DNA of 64,000 bases from contig WSXW01000003.1 in the NCBI GenBank assembly GCA_009773495.1, positions 1-64,000 on the forward strand, written 5' to 3'. Position 1 is the first letter of the stretch. Every line of letters starts with the position of its first letter. The notes under the pieces are model-generated. The model saw only the letters and a list, made by a program, of their open reading frames with translations. It did no database searches and had not been told where the DNA came from. The translations under genes were made by a program, and so were the position numbers. This DNA is from Bacillota bacterium (GTDB lineage Bacteria > Bacillota > UBA994). This document shows positions 9,220-62,727 of this stretch, in pieces.

Positions 9220-9846
9220 CTAAAATAGGGTTAAGGCTGCCTTAATAAAAACGGGCGTAATGAAGACTTCCACGAGGCTGGCTGCAGCCATCAGTAACAA
9301 GAATAGTACGGTGTTCGCGCTGTACTGAACAGCGGGTGATGTATTTTTGCGCAGCCCCACTCTATGCTTGCCGCCAAAAATGACAGAGAACGAAAAACAA
9401 ATGCCCAGCGCACCCAACCCTACCAGGGCGGGAACAACGATTAGATTGTGTGGAATTATCGAGGCCAGAGCGAATAGGAAGCCTTTGAGGCCCAGTTCAT
9501 CTACTAGAAAACCCACACTAAAACCAATTACGAATCCCCGCGCAAAGATCAGGCCAATAATCACCGGTACTCCGAAAACTATGAGACCGCATAACCACAT
9601 CAGGACAACAGTCTGAAAATTCATCCATACAACGCTTTGCCAAGTCGCTGCCTCTAGTTTGCCCACCATCATGGTTTCAAAATAGGTGTTAATATAACCG
9701 ATTAAGTCTTGTTTTTGGTGAAAGGTTATAGCCTTTACCGTAACTGCTCCAGAGACAGTTCCGATCACGAATACTAGGCAGGCTATAGCATAGGCCAACC
9801 ATCGCTGACGAATATGTTCTGCAAAGCCAAATCCTCTGCGACTCAT
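9220..9846 (-). CDS. spoIIM: Stage II sporulation protein M
   Basis: 208-aa multi-TM protein with the SpoIIM pattern (GFVIGFSVGFLVDELGLKGFLFALASIIPHNLI). Confidence 0.9.
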   Translation of the reverse strand: MSRRGFGFAEHIRQRWLAYAIACLVFVIGTVSGAVTVKAITFHQKQDLIGYINTYFETMMVGKLEAATWQSVVWMNFQTVVLMWLCGLIVFGVPVIIGLIFARGFVIGFSVGFLVDELGLKGFLFALASIIPHNLIVVPALVGLGALGICFSFSVIFGGKHRVGLRKNTSPAVQYSANTVLFLLLMAAASLVEVFITPVFIKAALTLF

Positions 9847-9935
9847 GTACAGCCCCCCCCTTCTGCATGTTTAGTACTAAATACTATAAGGTATGCGGGA
9901 AGCGTGGCCTTCATAAGCTAGGGTGAGGTGATTTG

Positions 9936-10070
9936 ATGAAAATCTTTGTCCGCGCTTCATCCTTAGTAATAAAAGGTACTACGTCTAGCATTATGCGTCA
10001 GTTGCGGGAGATGGCAAAGACTTATCCCCATATGACCTTACTTGAGTACATCAAACACCGTCTAAATTAG
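9936..10070 (+). CDS. Small protein (44 aa), candidate MciZ-like FtsZ inhibitor
   Basis: ATG behind GGGTGAGGTG; MKIFVRASSLVIKGTTSSIMRQLREMAKTYPHMTLLEYIKHRLN*. Below the ORF-track length cutoff. Pattern G....I...L.E...T[FY] and size match MciZ as remembered; divergent from spoIIM. Confidence 0.55.
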   Translation: MKIFVRASSLVIKGTTSSIMRQLREMAKTYPHMTLLEYIKHRLN

Positions 10071-53097: not shown

Positions 53098-54477
53098 TTA
53101 CCTCCCGCCCCAAGTGTGGAACGTATATACGTCGCCTGTGGGCCATAGATTTAAGGCATTGGCAAAGCGGGTGAACGTAGTGGCGGGGCTGCCATCAAGA
53201 ATAACCCTATCCCCGCTCGCACCACTTCCATTGAGCTCCCGCCCTACAACGATACCTTTGAGCTTACCGTTACCAGTAAGACTGATTACAGCATTAGGGG
53301 CATAGAGGACCCTTAGATGGGCCTCAGCAGCGCCGCTTACGGTTACGCTATTGCCCCCGGTAATGACATGGCCGACAATTCCTCCACTGGCACCGATGTT
53401 AACATTTGCTGAATGGGCAATTAGCGAGGCCTTCACTATAGAAGCACCGCCAAGGTTGATAGTTTGTGTGCCATAGTAATAAATATCTACCTTATCAAAG
53501 CTGCCATCAGTATTAATAAACCCGTCCGCGGTTATGGATAGAGTGTTTTCTACATGAAAGATGAGACGGCCTTTACCTGACCCGGTGATGTAGATTCCTC
53601 GTCCTGCACCAGCACCATTCACTGTAAGATTCTTGGTTCTGATGATGACGTCAGCATCTCCAGGGACGTTGATGAGCAAGGTAGCCCTAACAGTGATGCT
53701 ATCGTAGCTGCCAGTCCCTGGCAGCGTAGAGGTGGACGGATTCCATCCAGCAGTGAAAGACCCCCGTGGAGTCAGGCCCTGCGGCAGGCGCCCGGTCAGA
53801 TCTGGGGGGGAGAATGTTGGAGCAGAGGGAACTAGGCTCACTGTGCCGGTGATGTGATTACTGATTGGTTGGGTGAGTTTTATTTTTCCGGCAAGATCAT
53901 CGCCAACAATATAAACATCGCCCGTTACCTTAGTATTCCAAGCGTTGAATTCGAGCGAATTTGCCATCACGTCGCCAACAATCGCGAAATTGGCGCCTAA
54001 CTTTACTGTACCAAACATGGCTGCTAGAGGCAGGCCCGAGTCCGACCCGCTCCCCACATCTACTTTCGTACTGACTTTACTCTTGGCCAGGTTCTTCTTG
54101 CCCTCTGAGACAATATTCCAGCCTTCGTTTGTTCTGATGTAGGAGATGCGCATGTCCCCAATATCTGACATAAACGAGCTCAGGGGTTCCGCGCCGGCAA
54201 AACCCGCACTCCTATAGGCAACATATTCCTGACCAACCGCTAGGTTCGTGGGAAAAGTGAGGCTTCCAGACAGGATGCCTTGCATGGCCCAGGCGAGCCC
54301 AGCCTCCGCCACGTAAAAAGCCTGAATACTTGAGGTGTGGGCTATAGCTGCCCGGTACTCAGCCGTGGTAACGGAAGTAAAGGTGACTCCTACCACCATC
54401 AAGACCGCAACAACAATCAGCGCAAAGACCAAGATACTGCCTTTCTCCTGAACCATCAAAATCACCCTTCCACTCAT
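53098..54477 (-). CDS. PilX-like pilus assembly protein with bactofilin-like repeat region
   Basis: QEKGSILVFALIVVAVLMVVGVTFTSVTTAEYRAA... and a glycine-rich beta-rich C-terminus. Confidence 0.65.
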   Translation of the reverse strand: MSGRVILMVQEKGSILVFALIVVAVLMVVGVTFTSVTTAEYRAAIAHTSSIQAFYVAEAGLAWAMQGILSGSLTFPTNLAVGQEYVAYRSAGFAGAEPLSSFMSDIGDMRISYIRTNEGWNIVSEGKKNLAKSKVSTKVDVGSGSDSGLPLAAMFGTVKLGANFAIVGDVMANSLEFNAWNTKVTGDVYIVGDDLAGKIKLTQPISNHITGTVSLVPSAPTFSPPDLTGRLPQGLTPRGSFTAGWNPSTSTLPGTGSYDSITVRATLLINVPGDADVIIRTKNLTVNGAGAGRGIYITGSGKGRLIFHVENTLSITADGFINTDGSFDKVDIYYYGTQTINLGGASIVKASLIAHSANVNIGASGGIVGHVITGGNSVTVSGAAEAHLRVLYAPNAVISLTGNGKLKGIVVGRELNGSGASGDRVILDGSPATTFTRFANALNLWPTGDVYTFHTWGGR

Positions 54478-54959
54478 CGATAATTTCGGAGGGCCACTCT
54501 GGTTGAAAAGGTCATGGGCAGCCCAGTGCCGGGGCGAGCGCCTGGGACTGAGCTCACCGTGGTGACAGTAATTGTGACGACTTTCTTTACCACCTCAAAG
54601 TCAAAGCGAAGAGATTGGACATAGCTACACAAGGGCTGGTTATTAGCTCTGATCTCTTGTCCTACAATCGTGTAGCTAAAGGTACGATAGCTGTTTGTGC
54701 CTGCCTCCCATACCGCGAAGTCCACCTGGTTTTTAGCGCCGTTAACCACGACAGAACCATCGCGGGCCTCTCTCAAGCGCACAGAGATCTGATCCATGGC
54801 AAACCGCACGTCTGACACGACAAGACCCGCTGTTTGTCCGGCGCTATAGGAGCTCATGGCCTCCATGAACAGCGCAGATATCGCCATGGCGATAATGCCG
54901 AGGCAGGCCATGACCACTACCATCTCTATCAGTGTAAAACCACGCTCACTACGGAGCAA
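54474..54959 (-). CDS. Prepilin-type protein (PilW-like)
   Basis: SERGFTLIEMVVVMACLGIIAMAISALF. Confidence 0.8.
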   Translation of the reverse strand: MLRSERGFTLIEMVVVMACLGIIAMAISALFMEAMSSYSAGQTAGLVVSDVRFAMDQISVRLREARDGSVVVNGAKNQVDFAVWEAGTNSYRTFSYTIVGQEIRANNQPLCSYVQSLRFDFEVVKKVVTITVTTVSSVPGARPGTGLPMTFSTRVALRNYR

Positions 54960-55326
54960 AGAGACTCACCACCTTGAGGCTGCGCTCTAGTTTGCCCTCG
55001 ACCCAGTAGATATCAATAGTCACTTCCGTGAGGCCAGTCGAGTGGGTCGCTACTCTGCGCTCATAGGAGTACTTGCTGTCAATGACTGTTCTAGGAATCT
55101 GCCCGCGGTTAGCTGCGTCGGCCACACGAAAATCATCCATAAGAGCCTGAGCGTGGTAGGCAGCTGCCACCTGCGACTTAGCGAAGTGGGTGGTGCGAAG
55201 ACTCATTCCGAACATGCCCATAAGGGGGAGCACCACTACACCTAAAACCGCTATGGCCACCAGAACCTCCACTAATGTGAACCCCTGCTGTTTCACTCTT
55301 TCGGAAAGGATAGTTTGGGATCGCAT
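54949..55326 (-). CDS. Prepilin-type protein (PilV-like)
   Basis: KQQGFTLVEVLVAIAVLGVVVLPLMGMF. Confidence 0.8.
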   Translation of the reverse strand: MRSQTILSERVKQQGFTLVEVLVAIAVLGVVVLPLMGMFGMSLRTTHFAKSQVAAAYHAQALMDDFRVADAANRGQIPRTVIDSKYSYERRVATHSTGLTEVTIDIYWVEGKLERSLKVVSLFAP

Positions 55327-55347
55327 AACCTCACTTCCTTTCTTGCC

Positions 55348-56115
55348 TTATAACCCAACCATGGCGGTGTACCACTTTATAATTACCGGCCCCCACACCA
55401 TGGATATATAAGCGCCAAGCGCCAAGAAGGGCCCAAAAGGTAGCATATCCTTCCTACCTCTAATTTTCAACGCTATTAGAGAAATTCCTGCCACTGCGCC
55501 GACAACAAATGACAATAAAAGCGTCAAGATGACAGGGGCGGGGCCGAGATAGAGCCCAATCAGCGCCGCCAGCTTTACATCTCCAAAGCCCATGCCGCCT
55601 CGCGAGCCAAGATAAATAAGCAGCATGATTGCATACCCCAGGGTAGCTCCTAAGAAGGCATTCCGCAAGGTAATAAAGGGCAGAAACACTCTTAGCCCCG
55701 CCCAAAATACCACACCGGTAAGCAACAACTTATCTGGTATGTAAAAATGGTCGAGGTCGATGAAGCTTATCACGATGAGGAGTGATGAAAGCACTAGGTA
55801 CGGGATCAGCGCGCCTTGCAGCTGGTGCTTGAGGCCGAGGAGCAAGAAGACCAGCCCGGTGAGCAGCTCTACCGCCGGGTAGCGCCAGCTGATCTTACAG
55901 CCGCAGTAGCGGCAGCGGCCGCGGAGGAGGGCATAAGATCCCACGGGTAAAAGATCCACGATTGATAAGCGATGGCTACAGCTCGGGCAATGAGAAGGCG
56001 GGCGAACAAGACTCTCGTTAAGTGGTAAACGGTAGGTTAGGACGTTCAAGAAAGAGCCAAAGATAAGGCCAAATATAAAATACATGTGATGCATCACCTC
56101 ATAAATTAAGGCCAC
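55348..56115 (-). CDS. pilD: Prepilin peptidase (A24)
   Basis: GSFLNVLTYRLP, CPSCSHRLSIVDLLPVGSYALLRGRCRYC, GMGFGDVKLAALIGLYLG. Confidence 0.93.
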   Translation of the reverse strand: MALIYEVMHHMYFIFGLIFGSFLNVLTYRLPLNESLVRPPSHCPSCSHRLSIVDLLPVGSYALLRGRCRYCGCKISWRYPAVELLTGLVFLLLGLKHQLQGALIPYLVLSSLLIVISFIDLDHFYIPDKLLLTGVVFWAGLRVFLPFITLRNAFLGATLGYAIMLLIYLGSRGGMGFGDVKLAALIGLYLGPAPVILTLLLSFVVGAVAGISLIALKIRGRKDMLPFGPFLALGAYISMVWGPVIIKWYTAMVGL

Positions 56116-56151
56116 ACAATACTGTGCGGCCTTAACAAGTTAAGGATTACC

Positions 56152-56562
56152 TTAATAGGATACCACTGTGGCAACGTGAACGGATTGAGTACCCACCGTA
56201 ACCAATGTAATGTTGATCCTGTAACCAACAGCCGTAGGATTGGTCGGGTATTTTGATACGTAGGAGGCAAGGGCTGAACGCAGGATAAAGTTATCCCCTA
56301 AAGTTGCAGTACCTGCAGTAGTGCCGGCTTCAGCAGTTGCTACCAGACCGCTCCATCCAACTAAGGTGCCGCTAGGATTATTATCTAATCCCCACCGCTC
56401 AACAGCCGATTGTAAGACCGCGATGTTCGCTTCGTTAGCCTTAGCGCGGGCGTCCGCCAGCGACGTCATTACCCTCGGCACGGCAATACCGGATAATACT
56501 CCCAGGATGGCAATTACCACTAGTAGCTCTATAAGTGTAAAACCTCTTTCACTCTTCTTCAT
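56152..56562 (-). CDS. pilA: Major pilin-like prepilin
   Basis: MKKSERGFTLIELLVVIAILGVLSGIAVPRVMTSLADARAKANEANIAVLQSAVERW. Confidence 0.88.
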   Translation of the reverse strand: MKKSERGFTLIELLVVIAILGVLSGIAVPRVMTSLADARAKANEANIAVLQSAVERWGLDNNPSGTLVGWSGLVATAEAGTTAGTATLGDNFILRSALASYVSKYPTNPTAVGYRINITLVTVGTQSVHVATVVSY

Positions 56563-56620
56563 ATATTTTCACCTCCTTTCCGGTTGCCTAGAACCTCTCT
56601 CTATATCTAGGCTTATCCAC

Positions 56621-57850
56621 TTAGCCCACCATTTTCAGCGAATCGAACATGGGGAGCATGATGGCCAAAATGATAAACGTGACGATAACACCGAGGATGA
56701 GAAAGACGATGGGTTCTATCAGCTGGGTCATTTGCTCGGTCATGGCCTTGATTTCGGCGTCGTAGAAATCGGAGGCCCGCTCCAGCATAATGTCTAGGGA
56801 ACCGGTCTCCTCCCCTACCTCAACCATTTGTATTACTAAGGGGGGAAAGTAACCGCTCTTTTCAAGTTGAGGGGCAATACCTTGGCCGGTGCGGATGGCC
56901 TCCTGAGCCGAACTCAGGGACTCCGCTATAATGGCATTGCCGAGAGTTTGTCGAACTAACATCATGGCAGGAATGATAGGTACTCCACTTCGCGTCAGGG
57001 TCGATAAACTCCTGCAAAATCGCGACACAAAATTCTTTCTATTGAGTTCTCCGAAGATTGGTACGTGTAAGGCCATGCGGTCAAACACTACTTTACCCGG
57101 GGGGGTGGACCGATACCAGGAGAAGAGGACATACATTCCGATAAAAATCAAGCCTATGAGCCACCACCAACTGGTCAGGATAGTGCCAAGACCTATCAGC
57201 ATCCTCGTCGGAAGAGGAAGATCAACGCCCATGCCAGAGAAGAGCTCGGCGAACTTGGGCACGACAAAGGCTATAAGAAAGGCACAGACAATAATGATTA
57301 CTCCTACGACCATCTTGGGGTAAAAAAGAGCCGCTTTAACCTTGGCCCCAATTTCGTGCTCACGTTCAAAGTGATTAGCCGCGCGGTCTAATACCTCGTC
57401 AAGCGACCCTGCTACCTCACCGGCGGCCACCATGTTGTAAAAGATCGCGGGGAAAACATCGGGGTAGCGCTTCATGGCTTCGCCAAGACCTAGGCCCGAT
57501 TCTACGTGCATGGCTACTTTGCGCAAGGTATCTTTGAGCTCTGGTTGCTGAGTTTGCTTATACACGGTGTGTAAGGACTTGATGATGGTGACTCCGGCGT
57601 TATAGAGCACAGAGAACTGCCGAGCCATGATGGCAAGATCCCTCTCCGGCACTCTCTTTTGAAAGATACTCTTTAGCCCGCTCCCACTCTTAAGCGTGTG
57701 GGCGATATCGCGGCTGAGTTGAAGGTCAATCACTACTAGTCCTTGTTGCTGGATCTTCTTCAGGGCCTCATCCTGACTCTCTGCCGAAACAGTACCGGAA
57801 TGCGAGGTCCCGGACATGGCCCGTGCCTTAAAAGTATATACTTGGCTCAT
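56621..57850 (-). CDS. pilC: Type IV pilus/T2SS inner-membrane protein PilC (GspF)
   Basis: RDLAIMARQFSVLYNAGVTIIKSL, FYNMVAAGEVAGSLDEVL. Confidence 0.93.
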   Translation of the reverse strand: MSQVYTFKARAMSGTSHSGTVSAESQDEALKKIQQQGLVVIDLQLSRDIAHTLKSGSGLKSIFQKRVPERDLAIMARQFSVLYNAGVTIIKSLHTVYKQTQQPELKDTLRKVAMHVESGLGLGEAMKRYPDVFPAIFYNMVAAGEVAGSLDEVLDRAANHFEREHEIGAKVKAALFYPKMVVGVIIIVCAFLIAFVVPKFAELFSGMGVDLPLPTRMLIGLGTILTSWWWLIGLIFIGMYVLFSWYRSTPPGKVVFDRMALHVPIFGELNRKNFVSRFCRSLSTLTRSGVPIIPAMMLVRQTLGNAIIAESLSSAQEAIRTGQGIAPQLEKSGYFPPLVIQMVEVGEETGSLDIMLERASDFYDAEIKAMTEQMTQLIEPIVFLILGVIVTFIILAIMLPMFDSLKMVG

Positions 57851-57862
57851 GGATACACCCCG

Positions 57863-58930
57863 TTAGTCTAGGATTTTAAGAATACTGGACTCTGTGCTGT
57901 AGAGTTTATAGGTCTCAGAGGAAATAATACCTTGCTGCAAAAGAGCCTTGAGGGATGATTCCATAGTGACCATTCCCGCTCTGGCATTAGTTTGAATAAT
58001 AGATGGCAACTGATGGGTCTTGCCCTCGCGAATGAGGTTACGAACCGCGGGTGTAGTCACCATAATTTCGAAGGCCGCGACTCGGCCCGGGCCATCGGCG
58101 CGGAGCAGTAATTGTTGGGCCACAACTCCCTGCAGCGAGGCGGCGAGCTGAATGCGGATTTGGGCTTGCTGATGTGGTGGGAAAATATCTATGATTCGGT
58201 CTATAGTTTGTGAGGCTGAAGGGGTATGCAGCGAAGCCAATACAAGGTGACCAGTTTCTGCGGCACTTACAGCAATCTGTGTTGTGTCATAGTCGCGCAT
58301 TTCACCGACCAAGATTACATCAGGGTCTTCGCGCAGCGCTGCCCGTAACCCGGAGGCAAAGGACGGCGTGTCCGGCCCGATTTCTCGTTGGTTGACCATA
58401 CACTGCCCGTGGCGATGGAGAAACTCAATGGGGTCCTCTAGGGTGAGAATGTGTAGCCTCTCCTCTTGATTGATTTGCCCGATCATGGCGGCCAGAGTAG
58501 TGGATTTGCCACTGCCGGTGGGCCCCGTGACAAGAATAAGGCCGTTAGGCTTGCGTGCCAACTCACTAATTATGGGAGGAAGGTTCAGAGCCTCTATACT
58601 TGGTATACCCATGGGGATCAGGCGGAGCGCCACGGCCACGGTGTTACGCTGCCTATAGGCATTAACCCTAAAGCGGCCAACGCCGGGTAAGCTGTGGGAG
58701 AAATCCACACTCCCGTTCTTAGTAAACTCCTCTTTCTGCCGTTGGTTTAACAGCTCATCAAGGAGCCGGTGGGTGTCGTGGCTTTTAAGCACTGGCATTT
58801 CGGGCATCCTTAGCAGCTCCCCGTCCACTCTCATCATGGGAGGAAGCTCGACGGTGAAATGAAGATCCGAAGCTCTGCGCTCCGCTGCATTTTTTAGGAG
58901 TAAGTCTATGTGTAGTTCATGAGCTTCCAT
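57863..58930 (-). CDS. pilT: Twitching motility ATPase PilT
   Basis: ILVTGPTGSGKSTTLAAMI, LREDPDVILVGEMRD, ETGHLVLASLHT. Confidence 0.94.
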   Translation of the reverse strand: MEAHELHIDLLLKNAAERRASDLHFTVELPPMMRVDGELLRMPEMPVLKSHDTHRLLDELLNQRQKEEFTKNGSVDFSHSLPGVGRFRVNAYRQRNTVAVALRLIPMGIPSIEALNLPPIISELARKPNGLILVTGPTGSGKSTTLAAMIGQINQEERLHILTLEDPIEFLHRHGQCMVNQREIGPDTPSFASGLRAALREDPDVILVGEMRDYDTTQIAVSAAETGHLVLASLHTPSASQTIDRIIDIFPPHQQAQIRIQLAASLQGVVAQQLLLRADGPGRVAAFEIMVTTPAVRNLIREGKTHQLPSIIQTNARAGMVTMESSLKALLQQGIISSETYKLYSTESSILKILD

Positions 58931-62223: not shown

Positions 62224-62373
62224 ATTACACCCCCAAAAATAGCAGCTTATTAGTCACTATATGCGTCCGATAATAAGAAGGTGTAAGTCCCAACATGATT
62301 TTAAGAAAAACATATCTATAGAGGGTTACTGCAGGGTGTTTATGGCAAAACTCCTCACTAAGGAGTGAGGACA

Positions 62374-62727
62374 GTGTTTGATAAGCGTCAACGGGGAGCA
62401 ACCCTAATGGAAGTGCTTGTGGTAGTAGCGATTGTAGGCATAATTTCAAGTATGGCCATAACACGGATACAGAATGTCTCCGCCGCCGACAGCGATGGAT
62501 CAACGCAGCGTGAACAGTGGGAGCGAGCCGCTTGTCTCTTCAACCTGAGCATAACTCAAAGCTCTACCGAGTATTTTGCGGTGTTTAACGGGAGTTACCC
62601 CACTGCTCCTGACGATCTATACCCCCACTACCTAGATCGAGTCCCAAACTGCCCGGCGCAGGCGACAGAGTACCTGTACGATGAGTACCACATTATTCAG
62701 TGCGTACACCATCAACGCAAAAAATAG
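62374..62727 (+). CDS. Stand-alone prepilin-like protein
   Basis: Probable GTG start at 62374 with AAGGAG 8 nt upstream; KRQRGATLMEVLVVVAIVGIISSMAI prepilin signature; plus strand. Confidence 0.75.
   Translation: MFDKRQRGATLMEVLVVVAIVGIISSMAITRIQNVSAADSDGSTQREQWERAACLFNLSITQSSTEYFAVFNGSYPTAPDDLYPHYLDRVPNCPAQATEYLYDEYHIIQCVHHQRKK

Follow-up and report, generated by a model that had tools for sequence, protein, structure and literature searches.

Does the short open reading frame that faces spoIIM in this genome encode MciZ, the peptide that inhibits FtsZ in sporulating Bacillus subtilis? A first-pass annotation had proposed as much for one frame in the window (the whole stretch of 64,000 nucleotides of Bacillota DNA analysed here). 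Read directly from the sequence, this frame lies on the plus strand at 9936-10070, starts with ATG and encodes 44 amino acids, its position and sequence being exactly those first given. Profile searches, the modelled fold, the genomic context and a promoter of sigma-E type agree in supporting the MciZ reading.

A short gene divergent from spoIIM

The locus comprises the following features:

9220-9846, minus strand: spoIIM, stage II sporulation protein M, the divergent partner (PF01944 at 90.9 bits)
9888-9895, minus strand: candidate sigma-E-type -10 element of spoIIM, CATACCTT, overlapping the mciZ -35 element
9890-9895, plus strand: candidate sigma-E-type -35 element of mciZ, GGTATG, with a 16-nt spacer; relatives have GGTATA, GGAATA or GGTATC at the same position
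9912-9919, plus strand: candidate sigma-E-type -10 element of mciZ, CATAAGCT, 24 nt before the ATG (family motif CATANNNT)
9925-9932, plus strand: Shine-Dalgarno sequence GAGGTGAT, matching the anti-Shine-Dalgarno, read directly from the sequence
9936-10070, plus strand: mciZ-like gene, 44 amino acids, MciZ family by profiles and MciZ fold by model

The ribosome-binding site had been described as strong, and indeed GGGTGAGGTG precedes the frame at 9921-9930. The only alternative start is a TTG at 9933, directly upstream of the ATG, and it is disfavoured because it lies too close to this site. The gap to spoIIM, on the opposite strand, is 89 nt, so the divergent arrangement holds; on the other flank, about 145 nt on, a 2-oxoacid:ferredoxin oxidoreductase gene (PF01558) ends. 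A plus-strand gene is as unusual here as had been remarked, since non-overlapping frames of at least 70 amino acids number 67 on the minus strand of the window and 3 on the plus strand. Another of the few plus-strand frames, at 62365-62727, has a prepilin-type N-terminus (GATLMEVLVVVAIVGI) and stands apart from the pilin-like genes at 53098-58930 on the minus strand. At the mciZ-like gene we found no Rfam family and no sigma-70-type promoter on the plus strand.

Family membership and predicted fold

Among 24,736 Pfam families, MciZ (PF13072) is the sole match to the 44-residue protein (E 0.0024), at 18.0 bits against a gathering cut-off of 22.2, which is a curation threshold and not a biological property. 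NCBIfam gave no match to the window protein and matched no other family member as MciZ. To avoid circularity, we used an out-group profile of 48 homologues from which the window and its whole class were excluded. Against this profile the window protein scores 27.1 bits, more than its own class relatives, while the best of 20,000 shuffles scores 12.8 (none reaches 27.1) and none of the other frames among the 1412 of the window exceeds 6.9; B. subtilis MciZ obtains 42.0 bits. The HMM search suggested in the first-pass annotation thus came out in favour of MciZ with both models. The resemblance, a homology to PF13072 over the whole peptide, is far beyond chance.

Single-sequence searches were unconvincing, so that profiles were needed to find homologues: across 61 relatives and the window's class, such a search returned nothing convincing except the window itself. 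With phmmer against the PDB, a single sequence retrieved only designed helical repeats and coiled coils, which we rejected as a composition effect. The A1 profile, built from the first 14 proteins, placed B. subtilis MciZ at the top of 177,635 PDB sequences (2mrw, E 8.9e-10; 4u39, E 3.2e-9); A1 and the A3 profile include the window protein, whereas the out-group profile does not.

The alignment with B. subtilis MciZ proposed at first reading is gap-free through residue 30, and the residues it singled out (Gly14, Ile19, Leu23 and Thr29-Tyr30) turn out to be the conserved core of the family. In 47 sequences Gly14 and Leu23 are near-invariant; outside the core the family is variable, with a mean column identity of 29%. 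The window protein carries Thr in place of the widely kept Lys15 that follows Gly14, and a two-residue insertion after Tyr30 that the alignments show to be common to its class relatives. A length of about 40 residues and a single copy per genome are family traits, found here as 44 residues and one match.

The AlphaFold2 model, computed from a 27-sequence alignment, has strands at 2-6 and 9-13 and helices at 16-29 and 35-43, with a mean pLDDT of 88.6. When this model was compared with 350,542 PDB chains using Foldseek, the top match was 4u39_J, the MciZ chain of the FtsZ:MciZ complex (TM 0.62/0.74, rmsd 1.5 over 31 columns), with a probability of 0.66 against 0.05 for the next match; its E-value of 1.4 is as expected for 44 residues. 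The predicted structure is thus the MciZ beta-hairpin and helix, as found in the complex with FtsZ.

Neighbourhood, promoters and distribution

The PF13072, A1 and A3 searches use sequence alone, so the position of the matched genes is separate evidence. In a smaller match set, 37 of the 41 matches from genomes with a located spoIIM lie upstream of it, at a distance of 90-4,613 nt and on the other strand. A larger profile gave one match each in 44 of 150 relative genomes, 42 of them divergent from spoIIM and the other two (genomes G045 and G137) on separate contigs. All 44 are among the 126 genomes with spoIIM, against 0 of the 24 without it (p = 1e-4). On the genome contigs, a scan with SpoIIM alone gave no match, and one with an alignment worked.

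Reading the loci, we commonly found a NUDIX gene resembling nudF between mciZ and spoIIM, and xerD-, deoB- and punA-like genes (by inspection) after spoIIM. The linkage of nudF and mciZ presumably holds in B. subtilis as well. No NUDIX gene stands at this place in the window's class, where mciZ directly faces spoIIM. Two further loci (L052 and L054) have short frames near spoIIM that begin MIVIIGK(R/K)xWVL and resemble truncated or divergent versions of MciZ that carry a C-terminal tail.

The motif CATANNNT occurs within 130 nt upstream of 49 of 60 mciZ genes, against a mean of 12.6 in dinucleotide shuffles and 9 on the other strand. In 36 of the 60 regions it is preceded at 15-18 nt by ATA (1.4 expected), an arrangement that we take to be that of the sigma-E promoter class. 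The predicted sigma-E-type promoter in the window belongs to this family-wide enrichment, although its -35 element, GGTATG, differs from the strict ATA core on which the count was based; sigE is present in the genome. On the other strand of the same stretch, the spoIIM side reads AGCTTATG, a spacer, then the -10 element CATACCTT, and the two putative promoters overlap in such a way that the -35 of one is the complement of the -10 of the other. These 32 bp (9888-9919) may form one bidirectional sporulation promoter. Three class relatives (L034, L035 and L037) also carry CATANNNT motifs on both strands. In B. subtilis, mciZ is sigma-E-dependent (PMC7430163).

Of 399 genomes sampled across the phylum, 95, belonging to 39 taxonomic families, carry one match each. 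The suggestion that MciZ extends beyond Bacilli is borne out by homologues in Clostridia, Negativicutes, Tissierellia and the window's class. Named genomes with mciZ upstream of spoIIM include those of Sporomusa ovata, S. malonica, S. acidovorans and S. silvacetica (Negativicutes), Thermotalea metallivorans and Anaerosolibacter carboniphilus (Clostridia) and Thermohalobacter berrensis (Tissierellia). The Pfam model detects 29 of 47 family members at E <= 0.1, and its cut-off is exceeded in 6 of 150 relative genomes against 44 of 150 with a synteny-supported match; the cut-off thus misses most of the wider family.

Conservation and dN/dS had been proposed as a further check, and the part that concerns the family stood. 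Between close to moderate relatives, pN was 0.06-0.35 and pS 0.26-0.93 in 10 of 11 comparisons, the eleventh pair (Sporomusa sp. KB1 and S. ovata) showing few changes of either kind. Purifying selection acts on the family overall; the window copy itself is comparable only with distant class relatives, at saturation. The remaining seven genomes from the same family as the window (G001-G007) have no mciZ match, though most have spoIIM, and the same-family loci that we read (L030-L033 and L042) keep spoIIM, and usually the junction with the por gene, without such a frame. Probably the gene was lost in these seven close relatives, in which it is therefore dispensable.

Is the window copy then a relic with little activity, in a lineage that is losing the gene? 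The seven genomes without mciZ would fit such a decay, as would the change of Lys15 to Thr and a score under the Pfam cut-off. We nevertheless regard this as improbable, because the copy retains its promoter, Shine-Dalgarno sequence, full length, Gly14, Leu23 and Thr-Tyr pair, is modelled confidently as a hairpin and helix, and scores above its class relatives against the out-group profile.

Putative action on FtsZ and relation to known inhibitors

In the mother cell of B. subtilis, sigma-E directs the production of MciZ, which caps FtsZ filaments at their C-terminal face and contributes to keeping the second polar Z-ring from being used; the second polar division is likewise affected by SpoIID, SpoIIM and SpoIIP (PMC6126333, PMC4929429, PMC7430163). 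The capped end is given as the minus end in these three reviews and as the plus end in PMC11938149. In the 4u39 structure, the MciZ hairpin extends the C-terminal sheet of FtsZ (PMC4929429). Only one FtsZ is encoded in the window genome; its identity to the B. subtilis protein is 70% overall and 67% over the C-terminal part. On contig C43 (58000-66000), ftsA, ftsZ, spoIIGA, sigE and sigG follow in a row, the sigma factors being assigned by inspection. This order is that of Bacillus, though the genome lies outside Bacilli.

Homology, fold, a conserved divergent position by (nudF-)spoIIM, a sigma-E-type promoter and a single FtsZ lead us to consider the frame, with good confidence, an mciZ orthologue, most likely encoding a putative sigma-E-dependent inhibitor that would cap FtsZ filaments and block a second division of the mother cell. 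With the fold, the promoter and a 70%-identical FtsZ in place, the mechanism known from B. subtilis is the best explanation, by which the 44-residue protein would bind FtsZ. By analogy with B. subtilis, sigma-E in the mother cell would activate mciZ and spoIIM at the same time, after polar septation. The beta-hairpin of MciZ would join the C-terminal sheet of FtsZ, and the helix of the peptide would cover the polymerisation face, so that filaments would be capped, Z-ring assembly halted and no second septum formed. Meanwhile, SpoIIM would drive engulfment with SpoIID and SpoIIP.

A sporulation peptide of MciZ fold could also have a target other than FtsZ, or modulate FtsZ, for example by shifting or limiting the polar septum. 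The evidence in hand concerns fold, position and promoter class, and the family varies outside its core, both of which leave some room for this idea. It seems to us very unlikely, given that the only characterised homologue binds FtsZ, that FtsZ is well conserved and that sigma-E timing, after septation, suits the blocking of a second septum. As for a spurious or unrelated small frame resembling MciZ by chance, its short length, sub-threshold Pfam score and lack of an NCBIfam match are outweighed by the shuffle test, conserved synteny, promoter, fold search and a family pN well below pS, and we regard this reading as already refuted at the present level of evidence.

Beyond the FtsZ-capping orthologue proposed for this locus, it is likely that mciZ is an ancestral part of the Bacillota endospore programme. 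Under sigma-E control, it would have kept its divergent place beside nudF/spoIIM across Clostridia, Negativicutes, Tissierellia and the class of the window, and would have escaped notice through its small size (about 42 codons) and its drift to scores under the family thresholds. In the lineage of the window, a single overlapping bidirectional sigma-E promoter shared with spoIIM would then couple the division block to engulfment. With the window gene, a known family gains one more member; what makes it interesting is how widely the family is spread and how little of it is annotated. A few such members may already be in databases, since sequences of some sampled relatives exceed the Pfam cut-off. 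A 2012 survey of sporulation genes in Bacilli and Clostridia makes no mention of MciZ (PMC3533761), and our literature search, whose reach did not include the primary MciZ papers, found no treatment of MciZ outside Bacillus. With those papers out of reach and some members above the cut-off, the wide ancestral distribution is likely, but not certainly, new as a claim. If mciZ is old and widespread, capping of FtsZ against a second polar septum would be a general feature of endospore formation, and the family would supply many natural, diverged, putative FtsZ-capping peptides for comparison. Adjacency to spoIIM combined with a sigma-E motif can also reveal sporulation micro-proteins that length or score cut-offs miss.

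How does the window protein compare with known systems? With B. subtilis MciZ (PF13072; 2mrw, 4u39) it shares its size (44 residues against 40), its predicted beta-hairpin and helix, the core hydrophobic-x-x-G-x4-I-x3-L-[KR]-E-x3-T-[FY], a predicted sigma-E-type control, a single copy and the family linkage to nudF and spoIIM. It differs from it by the two-residue insertion after Tyr30, a second C-terminal helix (35-43) in the model, Thr instead of Lys15, a gene that directly faces spoIIM with no nudF between, and a host outside Bacilli. SulA, MinC and other inhibitors of the C-terminal face act on the same side of FtsZ as MciZ (PMC11938149); however, they belong to other protein families and are not sporulation genes.
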